A DNA stretch of 50,985 nucleotides, from assembly GCA_945905815.1 (NCBI GenBank), contig CAMDQH010000017.1:1-50985 (forward strand), in the 5' to 3' direction. Shown here one piece after another: positions 32,537 to 49,538 of this stretch. The stretch's first letter is position 1. Each line of letters opens with the position of its first letter. The DNA comes from Bacteriovorax stolpii. Lineage in GTDB: Bacteria; Bdellovibrionota; Bacteriovoracia; Bacteriovoracales; Bacteriovoracaceae. Under the pieces are notes generated by a model, which searched no databases, had not been told where the DNA came from, and was given only the letters and a program-made list of their open reading frames with translations. A program made the translations under genes and the position numbers.

Positions 32537-34378
32537 ATGAAAGCATGCTTATTAATTCTTGTTGCGTTCTCTTCAGTATGTTTTGGGCAAGAACAATTGG
32601 CCGTACGACTCAATGAAAATGGACTCATGAAGATCATGCAGATGGCCCTAAAATACAACACTGGTACCAAAGGTAGCAGAACGATGGTTGTTCCCAAAAG
32701 TATCTATAAGTTTACAATCAAACAAAAAGATCTCGCTGAAAATAAAGTGATTCAAATATTGAATGAGATTAGTGATCTTGATTTTTCAAAAAATCTTGAT
32801 TTTTACCTTCAAACTTCTGACATTAAAATTACCGGAGTCGTAGACCAAAAAAGCTTAGTTACAACAATTACTAATTCAAAACCTGACGGTTTTGACTTGA
32901 AAATGTCTTTAAATATTTCCAAAGTCACCCTCACTGGAACAAGTTTAAGTCTTTGTGAAGATCGTGAAAGAACTGCGAAGAAATGTGGTAAGGGGCTCAA
33001 AACCACGGCCAATGGATTGACCATTACTACTTTGAACCGTCCAGTCATTCTCACTTCCACGATGAGAGTTTCTGTAAAAAAAGGGCTGGCCTCTGTTAAA
33101 ATTCTCTCAGTCAGTTCTAACCTTGAATCAAAAACACCACCAACTCTAGATGTAAATTTCACAAGTCTCGCAGTACCTAAGATTTCTATAATAATAGATG
33201 ATCAGGAAACTGAACTTGATACTTCGAGATTGCGAGGACAGATCTTAGAAAGGAAAACATTCCTTGGGAAAAAGCTCATGGCCTTCGCTGGTGATTTTAT
33301 AGCTGACGATTTAGCAGAAATGATTAACGTTTACTTAAAAAACTCAGTTTCGACGACACTAAATGTTTACCACCGTGATGACCCAGTTACGTACAGAGAA
33401 TTAAATTATGAACCTGAATTTAATGTTGCGGTTGCTGATAATACATATGTTAGACCTCCGGTACTATTTGCGCCGCCTAAGACTACTTTAATCAATGCTC
33501 CCAAACCGGCCAATGATGTGATGAAGGTTCTTATGGATCAGTTCACTCATGTTGTTCGTCAGGCACAAGTTGATCTCTCTTTAAAATCTATTTTGACGCC
33601 TTCAAATAAGGACATTCAGCTAGCAGGTTTATTGAATTTTGTTTTGAACAATAAGGTTTATACTGTAAAGAAAACTTTAGGCAATTCGACAAGAACGCTA
33701 CCTGCCCTTGACCTCAGTGCCCACCGACTTCATGATATCAACCTTGCGATTTCAGAACCGGTTATAAATGGAGCACTTGATTTAGTGAATTCAACTGATC
33801 TTTTCAACGATCTCCTTGATGAAGTAGCCCCTTCTCCTGAACTCTCAATTAATAGTGTTAAGCTTCATTTTACTAACACAAATAGCTTGAAAGCGATCGT
33901 TAACGTTTCGGTTGACCTTAATAAAGTTCGTACGGATTTTTGGTCGCATCCTGGCGCATGGATTGAAACAGGGATCGGTCAGTGGCTTGAACGCAATAAC
34001 AACAATGGCGTGATCTATTTCCCACTGGAGCTGGAAGTAATACCTACCGTCGTAAAAAATCCGACGACAGGTGAGGCAAGCCTAAGTATCAAAATTAAGT
34101 CAGTATTTAGCGGCGGAAGTCTTTTGAATACTTTTAAGTATCCATCCAATGTTGGGGATATGTTTAACGTGGTCAGAAAGGCTGTCCTTACCAAGCTTCA
34201 TGATCAACTAGATAAGTATGCAGATAAGTCATTTGAAATTGATTTGAAAAAGTTTTTGAATCAATCAGGCGTGGAGTTTATGCCAAAATCCATAACCTTC
34301 AATAATGCAGCTTACATGTTTGTTAACCTAGATATTAAAGACATAAAATTTGATAGCTTAAACCCTAATAAGAAGTAA
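32537..34378 (+). CDS. Large exported protein, TULIP/BPI-like by pattern, 613 aa
   Basis: A Sec signal peptide (residues 1-17, ending CFG) is followed by a long, strand-rich protein of regular amphipathic pattern. A segment at about 405-427, ISEPVINGALDLVNSTDLFN, is placed as the N-x-x-L helix that starts the C-terminal half of BPI/LBP-type lipid-binding (TULIP) proteins, and the final 60 residues form a matching helix-strand end. The next gene encodes a protein with the same plan. Family membership is inferred from the pattern only. GGAG precedes the ATG by six bases; a TTG further upstream is not needed. It likely acts in the periplasm or on the surface. Confidence 0.8.
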   Translation: MKACLLILVAFSSVCFGQEQLAVRLNENGLMKIMQMALKYNTGTKGSRTMVVPKSIYKFTIKQKDLAENKVIQILNEISDLDFSKNLDFYLQTSDIKITGVVDQKSLVTTITNSKPDGFDLKMSLNISKVTLTGTSLSLCEDRERTAKKCGKGLKTTANGLTITTLNRPVILTSTMRVSVKKGLASVKILSVSSNLESKTPPTLDVNFTSLAVPKISIIIDDQETELDTSRLRGQILERKTFLGKKLMAFAGDFIADDLAEMINVYLKNSVSTTLNVYHRDDPVTYRELNYEPEFNVAVADNTYVRPPVLFAPPKTTLINAPKPANDVMKVLMDQFTHVVRQAQVDLSLKSILTPSNKDIQLAGLLNFVLNNKVYTVKKTLGNSTRTLPALDLSAHRLHDINLAISEPVINGALDLVNSTDLFNDLLDEVAPSPELSINSVKLHFTNTNSLKAIVNVSVDLNKVRTDFWSHPGAWIETGIGQWLERNNNNGVIYFPLELEVIPTVVKNPTTGEASLSIKIKSVFSGGSLLNTFKYPSNVGDMFNVVRKAVLTKLHDQLDKYADKSFEIDLKKFLNQSGVEFMPKSITFNNAAYMFVNLDIKDIKFDSLNPNKK

Positions 34379-34381
34379 TTT

Positions 34382-36076
34382 ATGAAAAAACTAATTTCTC
34401 TTGCTCTTGTCTGGTCGATTTTAAGTAGTCCGGGCCATGCCCATGCATTTACGGCGCCAGACATACTGATTAATACGAAGCTTGACTCTGACTGGTCTGG
34501 TATTTTAGTGTCGAGAATTAGACGTGTTGTTAAAAACTTTGGATACCCTGATCCATTCAATCAAGAGTTTTCACAACCATTAATAGTTTCTGAAGCTAAA
34601 GTTCAAGAATATTTAAATCCCAACGCCAAAGAACTTCTAAACGAGTTGGGACACTTGTTAAATATGGATTTCTTAAACGGTCAAACCCAAGTAACTATTC
34701 ATGGTCTACATTATGATGTTAAGGGTTTTAAAACGGAGCTAAGTGGATCTGAAAAAAAAATTGATGGCCTTTCTGTTGCAGCAGACTTTTCAGCATCTAA
34801 AGTCCGGGTTTCTGCAGACAAAGTGACTCTTTCTCTTTTGATTCCAGGCATACATGCGCTTCCAGTTATTAACATTGATATAATTAATCCTGTTATTTTG
34901 GCTTCTGAAGATAAGCTCATAAACTTCTTTGCAAAAATCCAACTTAAGGACAGGCCAGACTCGTTTAAGTTGTTTCTTGAGGATGCAAACTTTACAAACA
35001 TGTCAGCTTGTTTACTTGAGGATCAAAATGCCATCAAGATAGACTACGAGAGGATCGTTGTACCCGCTGTAAGTGTTCGAATTGGAAATAAACTATTAAA
35101 ATTTGATCCTAAGAAAATTGAAGCACTCATAAATTCTAAAAAAGATGGCCTTAAAAGTATTCTCGTCGCTGAAGCAGCTTCTTTTCTTTCTAGCGGGATG
35201 AGTGAAGATGTCTTGAAATCAATAAACTCGGTTTCATTTGCTAAAAGGATGTGGATAGATTCTTCATCTATTCAATCCATGTTAAATATTGATTCATTTT
35301 CAAATGAACCATATGGAAACATTGTCGAAGCCAAATTATCCGGTGATTTTTGTCCTCATGAGCTATATAAGATTAAGGGTGAGGCTTGTATCTCGGATAA
35401 AGTGACTAAACCCGTGACTTCACGGATCACAGAAAACCATCACCTGATTTCAGTTGGTGCAACGAAATCTTTAATTGATCAAGGCAATGCAAATATTGTG
35501 GTTAGTATCTCAGAAGATTATGTGAATAAAGTTTTAGTCTCCACCTACGACGCTGGTCTATGGGATGCAATGTTAACAAAAGCTGGCGTTAAAATGGGCC
35601 CGAATAAAGTTTTTCTTCGGATGGATGAGAAAGGTAGCAATACAGGAACTCTTTATATGGATTTACTTTATGGTGTGAAGAAAATTGAAAGGATGGCAAT
35701 TGGCGCCAAAGAAGTGCGGTTCCCATTAGTCATTAAAGTTGGACTTAAGATCAAGGAAGATAAACACATTCCTACTTTTGTAATCCATATGGCCGGAATT
35801 GATATTTCTGATGCGACTCTCTTAAATGGTATACCGGAATTAGGAGTTGTAAGTAATATTCATACTCTTCGTATGAAGAAGAAGATCCTGGCATCTCTAA
35901 GAGAAGAGACGGCCGGGCTTAATAATCAAGATGTTTTAGAGCTTCGTTACCCTGAGTTGCGTGGACTTGGTCTGGATAAAATTGATTTTGTATCAGACGG
36001 AAACGGCAGGATGAACGCTTTGATACTCCTTCAGGAATCCCAGGAAAAATCGAATTCATTACTAGATTTAAAGTAA
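34382..36076 (+). CDS. Second large exported TULIP/BPI-like protein, 564 aa
   Basis: This is probably a distant paralogue of the gene three bases upstream. A signal peptide (residues 1-22, ending GHAHA) is followed by strand-rich sequence. The stretch ISEDYVNKVLVSTYDAGLW (about 376-394) closely follows the BPI-type pattern (N near the start, then AG-L), and both proteins share FPL-x-(I/L) and R-K-x-x-L landmarks near their ends. A role in binding or moving lipid or lipopolysaccharide across the envelope is plausible but unproven. The near-zero spacing suggests one transcript and possibly a heterodimer. The convergent hemY-like gene ends nine bases downstream. Confidence 0.8.
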   Translation: MKKLISLALVWSILSSPGHAHAFTAPDILINTKLDSDWSGILVSRIRRVVKNFGYPDPFNQEFSQPLIVSEAKVQEYLNPNAKELLNELGHLLNMDFLNGQTQVTIHGLHYDVKGFKTELSGSEKKIDGLSVAADFSASKVRVSADKVTLSLLIPGIHALPVINIDIINPVILASEDKLINFFAKIQLKDRPDSFKLFLEDANFTNMSACLLEDQNAIKIDYERIVVPAVSVRIGNKLLKFDPKKIEALINSKKDGLKSILVAEAASFLSSGMSEDVLKSINSVSFAKRMWIDSSSIQSMLNIDSFSNEPYGNIVEAKLSGDFCPHELYKIKGEACISDKVTKPVTSRITENHHLISVGATKSLIDQGNANIVVSISEDYVNKVLVSTYDAGLWDAMLTKAGVKMGPNKVFLRMDEKGSNTGTLYMDLLYGVKKIERMAIGAKEVRFPLVIKVGLKIKEDKHIPTFVIHMAGIDISDATLLNGIPELGVVSNIHTLRMKKKILASLREETAGLNNQDVLELRYPELRGLGLDKIDFVSDGNGRMNALILLQESQEKSNSLLDLK

Positions 36077-42185: not shown

Positions 42186-42214
42186 TTAAGCATTAATTTT
42201 TCCCTAGGGTGTTT

Positions 42215-42604
42215 ATGTCTCTTCCAATCGAAGGTTCATTAAATTATTTGTCTATTTTAATCCTCATGATTATTGCTCTGGTTGTGACTTCAGCAATCGT
42301 TGTGATCAATCAGATTTTCGGAAAAAAAGGTGTGGTTTCTTCTACCAAAAAATACGACACATATGAAAGTGGCGTTCACCCAGAAGGCGATGCACACCAG
42401 CAATTTTCAGTTCGCTATTATTTGGTCGGAATTATTTTTCTTATCTTTGATGTCGAAGTTGTTTTTATGTATCCTTGGACTCTCACGTATCACAATTATT
42501 TAAAATCTGGCCCACTCATATTGATTGAGATGGGTTTGTTCTTTGTCCTGCTTTTAGGTGGATATCTCTACCTACGCCTTCGCGGCGCTTTGAGCTGGGA
42601 TTAA
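42215..42604 (+). CDS. nuoA: NADH-quinone oxidoreductase subunit A
   Basis: The 129-residue protein has three transmembrane helices (about 10-33, 65-85 and 97-118) and the conserved loop YDTYESGVHPEGDAHQQFSV with FLIFDVEVVFMYPW, which define NuoA. It belongs to the membrane arm of complex I at the junction with the quinone site. ATG 42215 is preferred to the GTG at 42209, with AGGG seven bases upstream. It is first in the operon and nine bases before nuoB. Confidence 0.95.
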   Translation: MSLPIEGSLNYLSILILMIIALVVTSAIVVINQIFGKKGVVSSTKKYDTYESGVHPEGDAHQQFSVRYYLVGIIFLIFDVEVVFMYPWTLTYHNYLKSGPLILIEMGLFFVLLLGGYLYLRLRGALSWD

Positions 42605-42613
42605 GGGGGAATT

Positions 42614-43219
42614 ATGTCTAAAGATGGAAGTTCATTTTTTTCTACAACACTTCTAAGTGAAGCGGCCAAGTGGGCCCAGAAAAATTCTTTGTGGCCTATG
42701 CCATTCGGAACTAGCTGTTGCGGGATCGAAATGATGTCGACTCTTTCAAGCACTTACGATCTGTCTCGTTTTGGGGCAGAGGTTGTTCGATTTTCTCCTC
42801 GTCAGGCCGACATGCTGATTGTGGCCGGAACGATTACGACTAAGATGGGTCCTGTTCTTCGTACCATTTATGATCAGATGCTTGAGCCTAAGTGGGTTAT
42901 TGCTATGGGAGCTTGCTCTTCATCTGGCGGTATTTTTGATACCTATTCAGTTCTTCAGGGAATTGATGAAATTATGCCGGTGGATGTTTATGTTCCAGGA
43001 TGTCCTCCGATTCCCGAAGGTTTGATTTACGCTATTATGCATTTGCAGAAAAAAATTGCAAATGGCGAAGATAGAAGACCTGCTGAAAAGCCAACTGAGG
43101 AAGATGCGAACAATGCCATGAGTTACCGCAAAGGTGTTGGATATGACATGCAAGCAAACTTCGTTGTGACTCCTGAGCATGTTAAAGAAATAAAAGAGAA
43201 ACAGGAGTTAAATAAATGA
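42614..43219 (+). CDS. nuoB: NADH-quinone oxidoreductase subunit B
   Basis: The 201-residue protein has the N2 [4Fe-4S] ligands: adjacent cysteines in TSCCGIEMM, one in MGACSSSGG and one in [10 protein letters not shown]2 passes electrons to quinone. The C-terminus has an extra, charged tail of about 40 residues. AGGGGGA precedes the ATG. Overlaps nuoC as ATGA. Confidence 0.96.
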
Positions 43220-43803
43220 GCACCAACTCTGTTTCACCTGCCGCATTCCTTGTAGCAAATCAAGCCAAAGTGGTTGCACGCCTGACTGATAAATACTCTA
43301 CCGAGCGTAAACTTGAATTTGATAAATTAAATGAGCCAGTCCTTTGGGCAAAAAATGTTGATGATATAAACTTATTGGTCAAGATGTTCATGTTGGATGA
43401 AAACATTAAAGTGGATTTTCTTTCTGACTTAACAGCTTATGATAATGAAGATGGCGAAGATGGGGACAAACGATTTGTACTTGTTTATCAACTTTACTCA
43501 CTTGAACTTCATACACGTATTCGTTTGAAGTGCTTGGTTGGTTTGACTGAACAGGCCAACACCATCACAGACTTATTCTTAGGTGCAAACTGGCTTGAAC
43601 GTGAAGTCTATGACATGTACGGAATTACTTTTAAAAAACATCCAAATCTTCGTCGAATCTTAATGGATGAACGGTTTTCTGGTTTTCCTCTACGTAAAGA
43701 ATATCCCATCAAACAAAGACAGCCTTTCAATGACAACATTCGTCTTCACATGGGTGCTAACCCTCTCCAGGTGAACACGCATACTCCTCAAGAGGAGAAG
43801 TAA
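43216..43803 (+). CDS. nuoC: NADH-quinone oxidoreductase subunit C
   Basis: The 195-residue protein contains the 30-kDa subunit signature [20 protein letters not shown] and the following [20 protein letters not shown]. It is part of the peripheral Q module. NuoC and NuoD are separate genes here, unlike the E. coli NuoCD fusion. Start overlaps the nuoB stop. Confidence 0.96.
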
Positions 43804-43804
43804 T

Positions 43805-45019
43805 ATGAGTAGTTTTTTTAATGATAAAGACAGTCAGCAATCAAACGATTTTTATAACCCAAACGTCTTGATTAACCTCGGGCCTTCTCATCCAGCGATG
43901 CATGGAACTCTTCGAGTTATGTGTCGTATCAATGGTGAAACGATTGAAGATGCAGCTTGCGAAATTGGCTACCTTCATCGGGCAATTGAAAAACTAGGCG
44001 AAGATAAAACATATCATCAGTGGATGGTTTATACTGATCGTCTGAATTATTGTTCAGCTTTAAACAACAACATTGCTTATGCAATGGCGGTTGAAAATAT
44101 TATGAACATTACTCCAACCGAGCGTTGTCAGTATATTCGTGTAATCTGTATGGAGCTTTCTCGCATTATCGACCACATTATTTGTGTCGCGATTAATGCT
44201 CTGGATTTAGGTGCCATGACTGTGTTCTGGCTCTTGTATCACTGGCGCGAAGAAGCTTACACCATGATTGAATCAATGTGTGGAATGCGTTTGACAACAA
44301 CTTATGCCCGCATTGGTGGTATGAGCTATGATCTTCCAGATAATTTCTCTGAACGTTTGTGGAAATTCTGTGAAGAGTTTCCTAAAGCTCTTGATGAAGT
44401 GGAAGGACTTTTAACTTCTAACCGTATTTGGATTGATAGAACGAAAGGTGTTGGCGTTATTACAAAAGAAGACGCGCTTAAGTTCTCTCTAACAGGTCCG
44501 ACTCTTCGTGCTTCGGGTATTGATCATGATCTTCGTCGTGATCGTCCTTATTACATGTATCCTGATTTAGATTTTGACGTAGTCGTTGGATCTAACGGTG
44601 ACGTTTATGACCGTTACCTTGTTCGACTTGAAGAAATGAAACAATCTGTTCGAATTCTTCAACAGTGTAACAAGCGTATTCCAAATGGCCCACTTTGGGT
44701 TGATGACAAACGTGTACACATTCCAGATAAACTTGAAGTCTATACAAAAATGGAAGTTCTCATTCACCACTTTAAAATCTTCATGGAAGGAATTGATGTT
44801 CCTAAAGGTGAAGCTTTTACTTGTGTTGAAGGACCGAACGGAGAACTTGGTTTTTATATTGTAAGCCGTGGTGGACCGAAGGCCTGGAGAATGAGAGTTA
44901 AATCTCCTTCTTTTATGCTGTTTCAGGGATTTGAAGCCTCAATTAAAGGCGGAAAAATTCCAGATGCTGTGGCCCACTTGGGAAGCGTGAACATTATAGC
45001 TGGCGAATTGGATCGCTAA
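43805..45019 (+). CDS. nuoD: NADH-quinone oxidoreductase subunit D
   Basis: The 404-residue 49-kDa subunit begins its core with LGPSHPAMHGTLR, including the histidine next to the quinone pocket, and has GYLHRAIEKLGE and the C-terminal DAVAHLGSVNIIAGELDR end typical of the family. It forms the quinone-binding cavity with NuoB. AGAGGAG lies upstream; one base separates it from nuoC. Confidence 0.96.
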   Translation: MSSFFNDKDSQQSNDFYNPNVLINLGPSHPAMHGTLRVMCRINGETIEDAACEIGYLHRAIEKLGEDKTYHQWMVYTDRLNYCSALNNNIAYAMAVENIMNITPTERCQYIRVICMELSRIIDHIICVAINALDLGAMTVFWLLYHWREEAYTMIESMCGMRLTTTYARIGGMSYDLPDNFSERLWKFCEEFPKALDEVEGLLTSNRIWIDRTKGVGVITKEDALKFSLTGPTLRASGIDHDLRRDRPYYMYPDLDFDVVVGSNGDVYDRYLVRLEEMKQSVRILQQCNKRIPNGPLWVDDKRVHIPDKLEVYTKMEVLIHHFKIFMEGIDVPKGEAFTCVEGPNGELGFYIVSRGGPKAWRMRVKSPSFMLFQGFEASIKGGKIPDAVAHLGSVNIIAGELDR

Positions 45020-45029
45020 GGAAAAATTT

Positions 45030-45557
45030 ATGGCGTTATCACAACAAATACAAAACACTATCAATGGAATCCGTGGGGATTTTCCCACGACTCAAGCCTT
45101 ATTGATTCCACTTCTGCTTGAAATCCAGGAAGAACAAAATTGGGTTTCAACTGAATCAATGCAAGGTGCTGCGGACTTTTTGCAGTTGCCACTTTCCAAA
45201 GTCAGAGAAGTGGCTTCGTTTTATACCATGCTCAAGTTAGAGCCTATCGGTAAAGTAAACCTACAGTTTTGTGTAAACATTAGCTGTTGGTTAAACGGTG
45301 CTGAGAAGTTAATGGCATGTGCAGAAAAACGTTTAGGCGTTCATTGTGGTGAAACAACTAAAGATGGGAAATACACGATTTCTGAAGTTGAATGTCTAGC
45401 TTCATGTGGGACAGCTCCCGTCGTTCAAATTAACCAAGATTATTATGAAAATATTGATGTGCCTAAGCTGAATGAGTTGCTTGATCAGGCCGAAAAAGAT
45501 CTCGCACAAAATAGGCCGGTTGGTAAAAGCACTCAAGTTCCAGGAGTTTGGCCATGA
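45030..45557 (+). CDS. nuoE: NADH-quinone oxidoreductase subunit E
   Basis: The 175-residue protein is a thioredoxin-like [2Fe-2S] subunit (cluster N1a): cysteines in CVNISC and in CLASC are placed as four ligands. It lies in the NADH-oxidising module with NuoF. The C-terminal 25 residues after the last strand are not conserved-looking. Stop overlaps the nuoF start. Confidence 0.95.
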   Translation: MALSQQIQNTINGIRGDFPTTQALLIPLLLEIQEEQNWVSTESMQGAADFLQLPLSKVREVASFYTMLKLEPIGKVNLQFCVNISCWLNGAEKLMACAEKRLGVHCGETTKDGKYTISEVECLASCGTAPVVQINQDYYENIDVPKLNELLDQAEKDLAQNRPVGKSTQVPGVWP

Positions 45558-46894
45558 AAACAGCTGCCGAATATGTTGAGCAAGTTCTAACTAAACACGT
45601 AAATGAACCCAATTGTCACACGCTTGATTTCTACGTGAAAAATGAAAAAGGTTATGAGGCTTTGAGAAAAGCTCTCACCATGAAACCTTCAGACATCGTT
45701 GACGAAGTAAAAAAATCAAATCTTCGTGGTCGAGGCGGTGCTGGATTCCCAACAGGGATGAAGTGGTCGTTTATGCCAGCAAAGCCAGTAGATGCTAACG
45801 GTAATTCCAAACCTAAATATATGGTTTGTAATGCTGATGAAGGTGAGCCCGGAACATTCAAAGATCGTCTCCTTATGACAAAAACTCCTCATAAAATGAT
45901 TGAGGGAATGATTATTGCTTGTCATGCGATTGAGTCTAATAAGGGCTTCATTTATATTCGTGGAGAATTTCATAAAGAAATTCGAATTGTTCAAAAAGCT
46001 ATTGATGAAGCAAAGGCAGCTGGATTCCTTGGTAAAAATATCATGGGCACAGGTTTTGACTGTGAGATGATTATTTACAAAGGTGCAGGGGCATATATCT
46101 GTGGTGAAGAAACTGCACTTTTAAATTCATTAGAAGGCAAAAGAGGCGAGCCTCGTCTTAAGCCACCTTTCCCAGCGCAAGTGGGTGCTTACGGCATGCC
46201 TAGTTGTGTAAATAACGTAGAAACTTTTGCAGCTGTTCCTTATATTATAAACGAAGGTGCTGAGAAATACGCTTCATTTGGCATTGAGAAAGCTGGCGGA
46301 ACTCGTCTTTATTGTGTTTCAGGACACGTAAATAAGCCGGGTGTGTATGAACTTCCTATGACTATGACTTTGCGAGAAGTGATTGAAGTCGCCGGTGGTG
46401 TTCGTACTGGCCACACGATTAAAGCAGTTATTCCTGGAGGAGCTTCTTGTCCGATGCTTCGTGCAGATGAAATCGATGTCAAAATGGATTACGACTCTCT
46501 GGCGAAAGCTGGAACGATGTCAGGTTCCGGTGGCGTGATTGTATTAGATGAAACTGTAAATATTGTTGAAGCTGTATATGTACTCTTAAAGTTTTATGAG
46601 CATGAATCTTGCGGTCAATGTACACAATGTCGTGAAGGTTCTCACTGGTTGGCCAGAATGTTTAAACGCATTCTCGACGGCGGTGGCAATACTGATGATT
46701 TGGATTATGTCGCAAAAATCTGCGGCAATATGGCCGGCCAGACGATTTGTGCTTTTGCTGACGCCGTTACTGGCCCAGCTCTTTCTTCAGTCAAAAAATT
46801 TAGATCAGAATTTGAAGACCTGATCCGAAATGGCGGACTTCACCCTGATAAGGGTATGGCCAGCTCGCATGCTAAAGAAGGTGCCCATGTCTAA
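45554..46894 (+). CDS. nuoF: NADH-quinone oxidoreductase subunit F
   Basis: The 446-residue subunit has the NADH/FMN site motifs LRGRGGAGFPTG and AYICGEETALLNSLEG, and the N3 [4Fe-4S] box ESCGQCTQCREG with a fourth cysteine later (in the CGNMAGQTIC region). It oxidises NADH. The ATG at 45554 overlaps the nuoE stop (ATGA) and has AGGAG upstream; the TTG at 45548 is not needed. Confidence 0.96.
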   Translation: MKTAAEYVEQVLTKHVNEPNCHTLDFYVKNEKGYEALRKALTMKPSDIVDEVKKSNLRGRGGAGFPTGMKWSFMPAKPVDANGNSKPKYMVCNADEGEPGTFKDRLLMTKTPHKMIEGMIIACHAIESNKGFIYIRGEFHKEIRIVQKAIDEAKAAGFLGKNIMGTGFDCEMIIYKGAGAYICGEETALLNSLEGKRGEPRLKPPFPAQVGAYGMPSCVNNVETFAAVPYIINEGAEKYASFGIEKAGGTRLYCVSGHVNKPGVYELPMTMTLREVIEVAGGVRTGHTIKAVIPGGASCPMLRADEIDVKMDYDSLAKAGTMSGSGGVIVLDETVNIVEAVYVLLKFYEHESCGQCTQCREGSHWLARMFKRILDGGGNTDDLDYVAKICGNMAGQTICAFADAVTGPALSSVKKFRSEFEDLIRNGGLHPDKGMASSHAKEGAHV

Positions 46895-48437
46895 TTTACA
46901 CGAACATGAAATCAAAAAACCAAAAGTTGATCTGAATTATTCTTCAGATAAAAAACCGGTTCATAGTGATCCGAGTCCAGAGGCCAAACCATTGCCTAAA
47001 GTGACGATTGACGGAAAGGCCTATGAATTTAAGCCTGGTGATACCATCATGCAGGTAGCGGAACGTTACAAAATCCATGAAGAAATTCCAAGATACTGTT
47101 ACCACCCAGGAATGCCGATTGCAGGCACTTGCCGTATGTGTACAGTGGAAGTGGAAAAAGCTCCAAAGCTTATGACTTCTTGTTCAACTCCTGCCGGAGA
47201 TGGAATGATTGTTCATACTCGTTCTGAAAAAGTTTTAAAATCACGTACAGGTGTGATGGAATTTCTTCTGACAAACCATCCGCTTGATTGCCCAGTTTGT
47301 GACAAAGCAGGGGAATGCGAACTTCAGGATTATAACTTTGAGTATGGTCCAGCGCTTTCTAACTTTAAAGAAGAGAAGCGAGTTTACGACGACGCTACAA
47401 CTAAAAAATTATCAAATGACGTTACTTTGAACATGAACCGTTGTGTTCACTGTGAAAGATGTGTGCGTTTTACTGATGACGTGACTAAAACAAATGATCT
47501 AGTCATGGTTAATCGTGGATGGCACAAAGAACTTGAAGCTACGACTGAAGCTGGTCTGACTAACGAATACCAAGGGTGTTTAACCGATTTTTGTCCGGTA
47601 GGGGCCCTTACTTGGAACGACTTCCGTTTTAAAAAACGTTCATGGTTTCTTTCTAAAAAGCCTTCTCTTTGTGATGGTTGCTCGAAAGGCTGTAACATAG
47701 AAGTTCATTCAGATGCCGACATCGTTTACCGTTATGTTCCTATACATAATGAAATGGTGAATGGTCACTGGATGTGTGATTCAGGTCGTAATTCTTATCA
47801 CTCATATATGAACCCGTTGCGCGTGACTTCACCTTTAATGAAACACAATGGTGAGCTTCATGCTACTTCAATTGAAACTCTTTTAACTGAAGTAAAAGCT
47901 CAGCTTAAAAATGCTTCAACGGTTCAGATTGTTATTGGAACAGATGCAACCAGAGAAGAAGCTGCACTTTTAAAAGAAAAAGTTCCTGCACTTATTGGAA
48001 AGAATGTCGCTGTTTCGTACTTCAATGGTACCAACGGCGTAACAACTGCTGCTGATGATAAGAAATTAGATAATCTTCTTAAAATGAAAGATTTAACTCC
48101 CAATACTCGTGGGGTTGAGGAACAAGGTCTAGCAGCTCTTGCAAATGGAGAGATCAGTGCTGACGTTGTGATCTACTTTAGAAGTGGCCGTGCGGGAATT
48201 CCTAAAATGAAAGCTGATCAGAAAATCATCCTTTGGGGTGTCTGGTCGCTCGAAGAAATTAAAAGTCTTCCTTCTAAAAATATTCTTGCTGTGATCGCTG
48301 GTCACGCAACAATTGAAAAAGCGGGAAGTTATAAAAATGCTGACGGCATCGTTCAGAAATTCCACCCGGCCATCGTTCATCGTGGAGGTGCTTTAAGCGC
48401 TCACCAGGTTGTAGGTGTCTGGCAGTCTTTAACTTAA
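46887..48437 (+). CDS. nuoG: NADH-quinone oxidoreductase subunit G, short form, 516 aa
   Basis: The N-terminal Fe-S region is complete: the [2Fe-2S] ligands in [15 protein letters not shown] and further, the [19 protein letters not shown] block, [10 protein letters not shown] and [12 protein letters not shown] further CxxCxxxC-x27-C motif, starting CDGCSKGC and ending in MCDSG, has the spacing of the N7 cluster. The molybdopterin-like domain after it is cut down to about 180 residues, so the protein is much shorter than the usual 700-900. ATG 46887 overlaps nuoF by eight bases with GAAGG upstream; the open frame to 46830 lies inside nuoF. Confidence 0.92.
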
Positions 48438-48446
48438 GTTGGTGAT

Positions 48447-49538
48447 ATGGAAAGTACGTTAATGTTTGATCTTTCGATGATGATGGCAAAAATCGTAGTG
48501 ATTCTTGTCGGAACTCTCGGTGTAGTACCTGTCATGGTGTGGTTTGAACGCCGTGGTGCTGCTTGGATGCAAGGACGAATAGGGCCTAACCGTGTTGGAC
48601 CTTTCGGACTCATGCAACCTTTGGCCGATGTAATTAAGTTTATTTTTAAAGAAACATTCACTCCGAGAGGTGCGAACAAGTTTTATTACTTAATGGCACC
48701 AATCATTGCTTTGATTGCGCCTTTATGTGCATTGGCCGTGATTCCTTTCGGAAGCAAGGCCTTTGTTAATGGGCATGAAGTTATTTTACAAGTGGCACAG
48801 ATGGACACAGGAGTTCTTTTTATTCTTGCGTTCGCTGGACTAGAAGTTTATCCCGTTATTCTTGCAGGTTGGGCTTCACGAAATAAATATACTGTTCTTG
48901 GTGCTCTTCGCGGTTCAAGTCAGATTGTCTCTTACGAAATCTCAATGGGCCTTGCTTTATTATCTATGCTCGTTGTTTATGGGTCATTTAATCCTCATGA
49001 CATGGTTTCTTGGCAGCAGGGAAGTTTAGGCTTTATTCCTCGTTGGGGTGCATTTGTTAATCCAATTGGGGCCTTAATTTTTTGGATTTCAATCTTTGCT
49101 GAAACAAACCGTCTTCCATTTGACCTTGCCGAGGGAGAATCAGAGCTTGTTGCCGGATATCACCTTGAGTACGGCGGGATGAAATTTGCGGCATTTTTTA
49201 TGGCAGAGTATGTTGCGATGATTATGGCTTCGGCCCTTATCTCTACACTTTACTTTGGTGGCTATGGAATACTTCCGGGAATGGAATTTGCCATAAACTT
49301 AATTTCTAATTTTTTCGCTTTTGGTGAAGTTGGAATGCAGAACACTAAAGCCGTGTTTGAATTTATTAGCTTGGCTTCAAAAATTGCAGTTTTCATGTTT
49401 TTGTTTGTTTGGGTTAGATGGACTTTACCAAGATTCCGTTTTGACCAACTTATGGATCTAGGATGGAAAATCCTTTTTCCAATCGCACTTATTAACCTGG
49501 TAGTAGTAACGATTGGTGTTTACTACTTCAATTCATAA
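48447..49538 (+). CDS. nuoH: NADH-quinone oxidoreductase subunit H
   Basis: The 363-residue membrane protein has eight or so helices and the family motifs [11 protein letters not shown] and the quinone-site loop [20 protein letters not shown], with the key charged residues intact. It anchors the peripheral arm and lines the quinone channel. Nine bases follow nuoG; the ribosome-binding site is weak. Confidence 0.96.

Follow-up and report, generated by a model that had tools for sequence, protein, structure and literature searches.

Tandem genes of Bacteriovorax stolpii and other Bdellovibrionota encode two diverged, exported proteins with a predicted BPI-like double-TULIP architecture

The window analyzed here, 50,985 nt long, is the complete contig C17 of a draft genome of 3.0 Mb. 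A preliminary description of this DNA had reported a tandem pair of genes for signal-peptide proteins of 613 and 564 residues, lying three bases apart, and both open reading frames are indeed present (genes A and B, Table 1). We took the ATG at 32537 as the start of A, because this codon is supported by the orthologues and TGGAG lies immediately before it; an in-frame TTG is also present 18 bases upstream. Each protein begins with a Sec-type (type I) signal peptide that has no lipobox and is conserved in orthologues. Scans of the window with Rfam and for tRNA genes were both empty.

Table 1. Positions of genes A and B and of the features of their products in the window
Feature	Positions	Strand	Description
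Gene A	32537..34378	+	Exported two-domain TULIP-like protein, 613 aa, basic, mature pI 9.0
A signal peptide	32537..32587	+	Residues 1-17, cleavage about G17/Q18, no lipobox; from sequence and orthologue conservation
A N-terminal TULIP-like domain	32588..33352	+	Residues 18-272; net positive in most orthologues
A linker between its two domains	33347..33514	+	Residues 271-326, low confidence (pLDDT under 50)
A linker motif DNTYVRPP	33437..33460	+	Residues 301-308; conserved in orthologues
A C-terminal TULIP-like domain	33518..34354	+	Residues 328-606; landmark LAISEPVINGALDL at 403-416
Gene B	34382..36076	+	Exported two-domain TULIP-like protein, 564 aa, near-neutral, mature pI 6.4
B signal peptide	34382..34447	+	Residues 1-22; from sequence and orthologues
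B N-terminal TULIP-like domain	34451..35281	+	Residues 24-300; matches Takeout/JHBP single-domain TULIPs and the BPI N half
B C-terminal TULIP-like domain	35282..36040	+	Residues 301-553; YceB matches 356-549; landmark ISEDYVNKVLVSTYDAGLW at 376-394

Models of A and B were built with AlphaFold2 from two separate family alignments; these are predicted, not solved, structures. The B model had a mean pLDDT of 82 and a pTM of 0.77, and the A model had a mean pLDDT of 72 and a pTM of 0.63. When the models were searched against PDB with Foldseek, the first four rows for B were CETP (E 9.8e-12), LBP (twice, 1.9e-10), and BPI (2.3e-9), and the first three rows for A were BPI (twice) and CETP, with E values from 4.8e-14 to 9.8e-13. 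By a second structural comparison (VIA Z), B scored 14.5 with BPI over 392 residues and also 12.6, and A scored 16.4 with LBP, 15.0 with CETP over 419 residues, and 14.8 with BPI. These double-domain matches span about 380-420 residues, and unrelated folds lie at Z of about 4-6. Single-domain TULIPs (JHBP, Takeout, mite allergen, and YceB) were matched at Z 7-10, on one half only. Thus, on the predicted structures, both proteins are TULIPs by fold, with BPI, LBP, and CETP as the best PDB matches, and the full-length alignment of the models together with the signal peptides places two TULIP domains in one exported chain. This comparison with solved folds agrees with the earlier proposal that both proteins are of the BPI/TULIP type, as the two-domain module was found in A and in B and the three animal families were matched first and over the full length. 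Based on these models, A and B are each almost certainly a full two-domain TULIP of the BPI/CETP architecture.

The preliminary description had likened one segment of B to the opening of the C-terminal domain of BPI/LBP proteins and had reported a weaker counterpart in A at about residues 405-427. In both models, this segment forms a short strand and then a helix that open the second half of the protein, so the B segment lies where it had been predicted to lie. The B landmark (ISEDYVNKVLVSTYDAGLW, residues 376-394) is near-invariant in orthologues (S375, S377, E378, N382, G392, and W394) and ranks with the best-conserved parts of the B family; the A counterpart was seen as LAISEPVINGALDL (residues 403-416), in which E407 and N411 are invariant. 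Other conserved positions are the invariant cysteines C140 and C150 of the A N-terminal domain and a near-invariant FxSDGxGRM at the C-terminal end of B. The A linker contains DNTYVRPP or a close variant in most A orthologues of this bacterial family, with two copies in one A sequence and one exact and one near copy in another. Only A has such a linker. Of the five A proteins without a B partner, four lack the motif, a lead rather than a test because these four stem from only about two lineages.

Comparing the profiles of A and B gave a clear similarity, with an hhalign probability of 98.5% (E 1.7e-15) over 377 collinear columns, and a single-sequence blastp of A against B gave an E of 3e-5. 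When the halves were compared apart with hhalign, N matched N at 97% and C matched C at 96.5%. The similarity of A and B is not due to chance, and as judged from their sequences the two proteins are homologous along their length. Any similarity between the N and C halves inside A or inside B was undetectable by hhalign; this is no argument against a pseudodimer because the halves of BPI are themselves barely similar to each other (PMC6791001). In a tree of 44 sequences from the A and B families, A and B formed two clades, each with an SH-aLRT of 100, and several sub-clades branched in mirrored order, including paralogous second pairs inside one genome (e.g. G202 and G092). The mirrored clades fit one old duplication that was inherited as a pair, and in the simplest history a tandem duplication took place once, long ago, and the pair was thereafter inherited and duplicated as a unit.

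Neither A nor B had a credible match in Pfam, NCBIfam, or PDB sequences, whether single proteins or profiles were used. An hmmscan of A, B, and all members of the family alignments A1 and A2 found no match to PF01273 or PF02886, a search of this genome with PF02886 found none, and the family profiles reached no BPI chain or any other chain in PDB. The DUF4403 model (PF14356) does not match A or B, and at its curated cut-off it was found in 0 of 57 genomes of the class, the matches being weak, partial, and to other, shorter proteins. For P47/OrfX2, the matches to A and B were weak and structural, and the Pfam and PDB sequence searches returned none. By sequence, A and B match none of the named TULIP families tested; they belong to the TULIP superfamily by predicted fold.

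Full-length BPI-like proteins are well known in animals. A and B resemble animal BPI, LBP, and CETP (PF01273 and PF02886) in their predicted two-domain order, matched over the full length, and in being exported, but they have no sequence match to these proteins and are two different genes in a tandem pair. The described bacterial TULIP families are YceB, DUF4403, DUF2140, DUF2993, and P47/OrfX2, among which DUF4403 was the sole full BPI-like pseudodimer in a 2019 survey (PMC6791001). DUF4403 (PF14356) is a bacterial double TULIP of diderm envelopes with the same predicted architecture as A and B (PMC6791001); it is described as one protein, whereas A and B are a conserved pair that its Pfam model leaves unmatched. 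Escherichia coli YceB (DUF1439) is a TULIP whose structure matches residues 356-549 of the B C-domain (Z 7.7), but it is a single-domain lipoprotein, whereas A and B have two domains and type I signal peptides without a lipobox. Clostridial P47, OrfX2, and OrfX3 are bacterial TULIP-like proteins from multi-gene clusters with a weak structural likeness to A and B, but their Z values are lower, the rmsd is high, the context is that of a Gram-positive toxin complex, and no sequence relation to A or B was found. From these comparisons, A and B are best called a new BPI-like double-TULIP family, as judged from the models, that occurs as a conserved, diverged, and coupled pair. In the literature searched, TULIP proteins of Bdellovibrio and related bacteria were not the subject of any paper, and the one paper that contained both words concerned another superfamily.

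The profile of the B family (A2) found members in 31 of 129 genomes of the class (roughly a quarter; nine of 48 genera) and, among 291 genomes sampled from the phylum, in 43 that belong to five families. A scan of genome contigs returned 0 matches with a one-protein query and 19 loci with the profile, nearly all labeled Bacteriovoracaceae, Bacteriovorax, or Halobacteriovorax, and one labeled Bdellovibrio. A lies immediately upstream of B on the same strand at 22 of the 24 loci examined, from four families of the phylum, a count of B genes with the solo C type left out. The two exceptions are a pair that is divergently oriented and a locus (L154) where the overlapping upstream gene is A-like by hhalign only (88.9%). 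The gaps between A and B run from -11 to +12 bases, apart from one of 89 where the B start is uncertain, and most pairs outside the genus overlap by 1-11 bases, which implies that A and B are translationally coupled.

Five genomes (G088, G089, G090, G098, and G100) have an A without a detectable B, and a solo B-like paralogue (type C) is found in many genomes, this one included; a strict A-B partnership is thus not universal. The type C gene of this genome is on contig C29 (L162:8845-10497), is about 26% identical to B, and has no A partner; in several genomes, type C sits between unrelated genes and a tyrosyl-tRNA-synthetase-like gene. The two partners also differ in charge. Once mature, A is basic, with a pI of 8.3-9.7 for 25 of 26 sequences, and its N-domain carries much of the positive charge; mature B is near-neutral, with a pI mostly of 5.7-7.2.

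The neighborhood downstream of the pair consists of housekeeping genes. On the opposite strand 3' of B, in the window and in relatives, are genes for a flavin amine-oxidase-family protein, a glutaredoxin, BolA, and DUF420, then a DinG-like helicase, and the complex I (nuo) cluster lies further downstream (window 42209-49538). Upstream of A, this window has a type II/IV secretion ATPase and other genes, and most relatives of the genus have genes for MlaE, an ABC ATPase, MlaD, a GYF-like protein, a methyltransferase, DciA (on the other strand), a CxGYRF lipoprotein, and one more protein. From the gene order and the CxGYRF start, the two genes that immediately precede A in relatives were considered as LptE and HolA, but these names had no Pfam support and were rejected.

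In these relatives, the same strand encodes the ABC ATPase, MlaD, and, where the contig reaches, MlaE a few genes ahead of the pair, and MlaD and A are about five unrelated genes apart. In this genome, the MlaE/MlaF/MlaD block is not beside A and B; it is on contig C3 (L178:1794-9216) and stops just after the last shared gene, at the point where A and B would start. This broken synteny indicates that the upstream neighbors in the window reflect a local rearrangement, and the presence of the block on another contig means that an operon with Mla is not needed. A short ORF adjoins the C3 block; on visual inspection it resembles the terminal part of a transposase, but it has no Pfam match. Mla is a plausible functional neighbor of the pair, but its folds differ from those of A and B, several unrelated genes lie between, and here it is on another contig. 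These data are suggestive of a link by synteny rather than by operon, and the association may be no more than synteny. On contig C20 (L180:1641-3993), this genome also has a second, diverged MlaE/MlaF/MlaD-like set.

TULIP proteins hold lipid in a hydrophobic tube, and several carry lipid through water (PMC6791001). According to Levine (2019, PMC6791001), a domain of this type is not long enough to reach across the periplasm and may pass lipids to partners, an idea that a coupled A-B pair fits. The export signals, the predicted fold, the homology of A and B, and their conserved gene order with coupling were established by computation, and the explanation that we favor, at somewhat better than even confidence, is that A and B act as a periplasmic lipid-binding or hand-off pair for the cell's own envelope. 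As exported, soluble double TULIPs, A and B would each be expected to contain two hydrophobic grooves, one per half. A single coupled transcript would yield both partners, the basic A and the near-neutral B subunit, and such a physical partnership is strongly suggested by the coupling, the co-inheritance, and the charge difference. In the periplasm, they would most likely bind lipid tails (of phospholipid or of LPS/lipid A); the modeled fold makes lipid a likely ligand. The lipid would then be handed between the inner and outer membranes, or among other carriers, as part of the traffic within the cell's own envelope. Given the other steps, a role in the cell's own envelope rather than in prey is probable, as suggested by the Mla synteny in relatives. 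A more specific form of this explanation seems doubtful to us. In it, the two proteins would be obligate partners in a heteromeric double-TULIP complex that is held together via the charge difference and possibly the DNTYVRP motif of the A linker, and this complex would act, next to Mla or in its place, as a Bdellovibrionota-specific four-barrel conduit or relay by which LPS or phospholipid crosses the periplasm.

BPI destabilizes the envelope of its target, and the pair had earlier been proposed to move or bind lipid during growth on prey. The predicted TULIP fold, from which lipid binding would follow, upholds the structural part of the earlier description, and the link to predation was left unsupported by the patchy distribution and the housekeeping and Mla neighborhood. 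If A and B were secreted into the prey periplasm (the bdelloplast), they would bind or strip prey LPS or phospholipid and so destabilize the envelope or feed the predator. The BPI/LBP-type predicted fold, the basic A with an N-domain that is positive in most orthologues, and the report, in PMC7529429 citing Kuenen and Rittenberg 1975, that Bdellovibrio re-uses the fatty acids and phospholipids of its prey are consistent with such a function. We nevertheless consider it unlikely, as the signal peptide alone leads to the cell's own periplasm and no export route beyond it was found, the neighbors are housekeeping genes plus, in relatives, Mla, and the patchy occurrence of B in its class argues that it is not a general predation gene.

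The ligand of a periplasmic pair could also be another hydrophobic molecule (a carotenoid, quinone, hopanoid, or lipoprotein acyl chain) that is carried or stored as by insect Takeout/JHBP or the beta-carotene-binding protein, all of which match the N-domains of A and B at Z 8-10. BPI, LBP, and CETP handle amphipathic or neutral membrane lipids, and it is these double-domain proteins that give the best and longest matches; as no pigment or quinone cluster was seen to travel with the pair, a carrier of this kind is distinctly unlikely. Clostridial P47/OrfX may be scaffolds or chaperones that do not carry lipid, and A and B could likewise have kept the TULIP fold as envelope scaffolds or assembly chaperones that work without lipid. 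The matches to P47, OrfX2, and OrfX3 (Z 5-10) and the resemblance of the short conserved motif in the A linker to a docking site are in line with such a role, which we regard as very unlikely because these alignments have an rmsd of 8-14 Å and fall clearly below those with BPI and CETP. Finally, the confidence of the A model is middling and the whole-chain Foldseek TM-scores are low (0.29-0.47) with a high rmsd, as might be seen if the resemblance came from a generic topology of a long beta-meander plus helix and the fold assignment were wrong. That reading is hardly credible when two separately aligned models rank the same three families first, over the full length and far above background, and each half also matches single-domain TULIPs; the low TM-scores and high rmsd perhaps reflect a differing angle between the domains.

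If A and B are as predicted, they add a double-TULIP family unrelated by sequence to DUF4403 in a phylum known for predators. Two diverged double TULIPs would have been kept coupled since before several families split, an arrangement that was not found described in the literature searched, and the maintenance of the pair across much of the phylum suggests an unrecognized two-part system for handling membrane lipids. We know of no carriers for the re-use of prey lipid. If A and B do move lipid, they would offer a handle on how these diderms build or supply their outer membrane, including prey-lipid re-use.

A 268-residue exported protein encoded on contig C13 of this genome (L172:3395-4201) had weak matches to DUF4403 (E 0.0014) and LmeA (E 0.0034), both TULIP-type families, and similar-sized weak matches were seen in four other genomes. 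This protein is possibly a further, single-domain TULIP.
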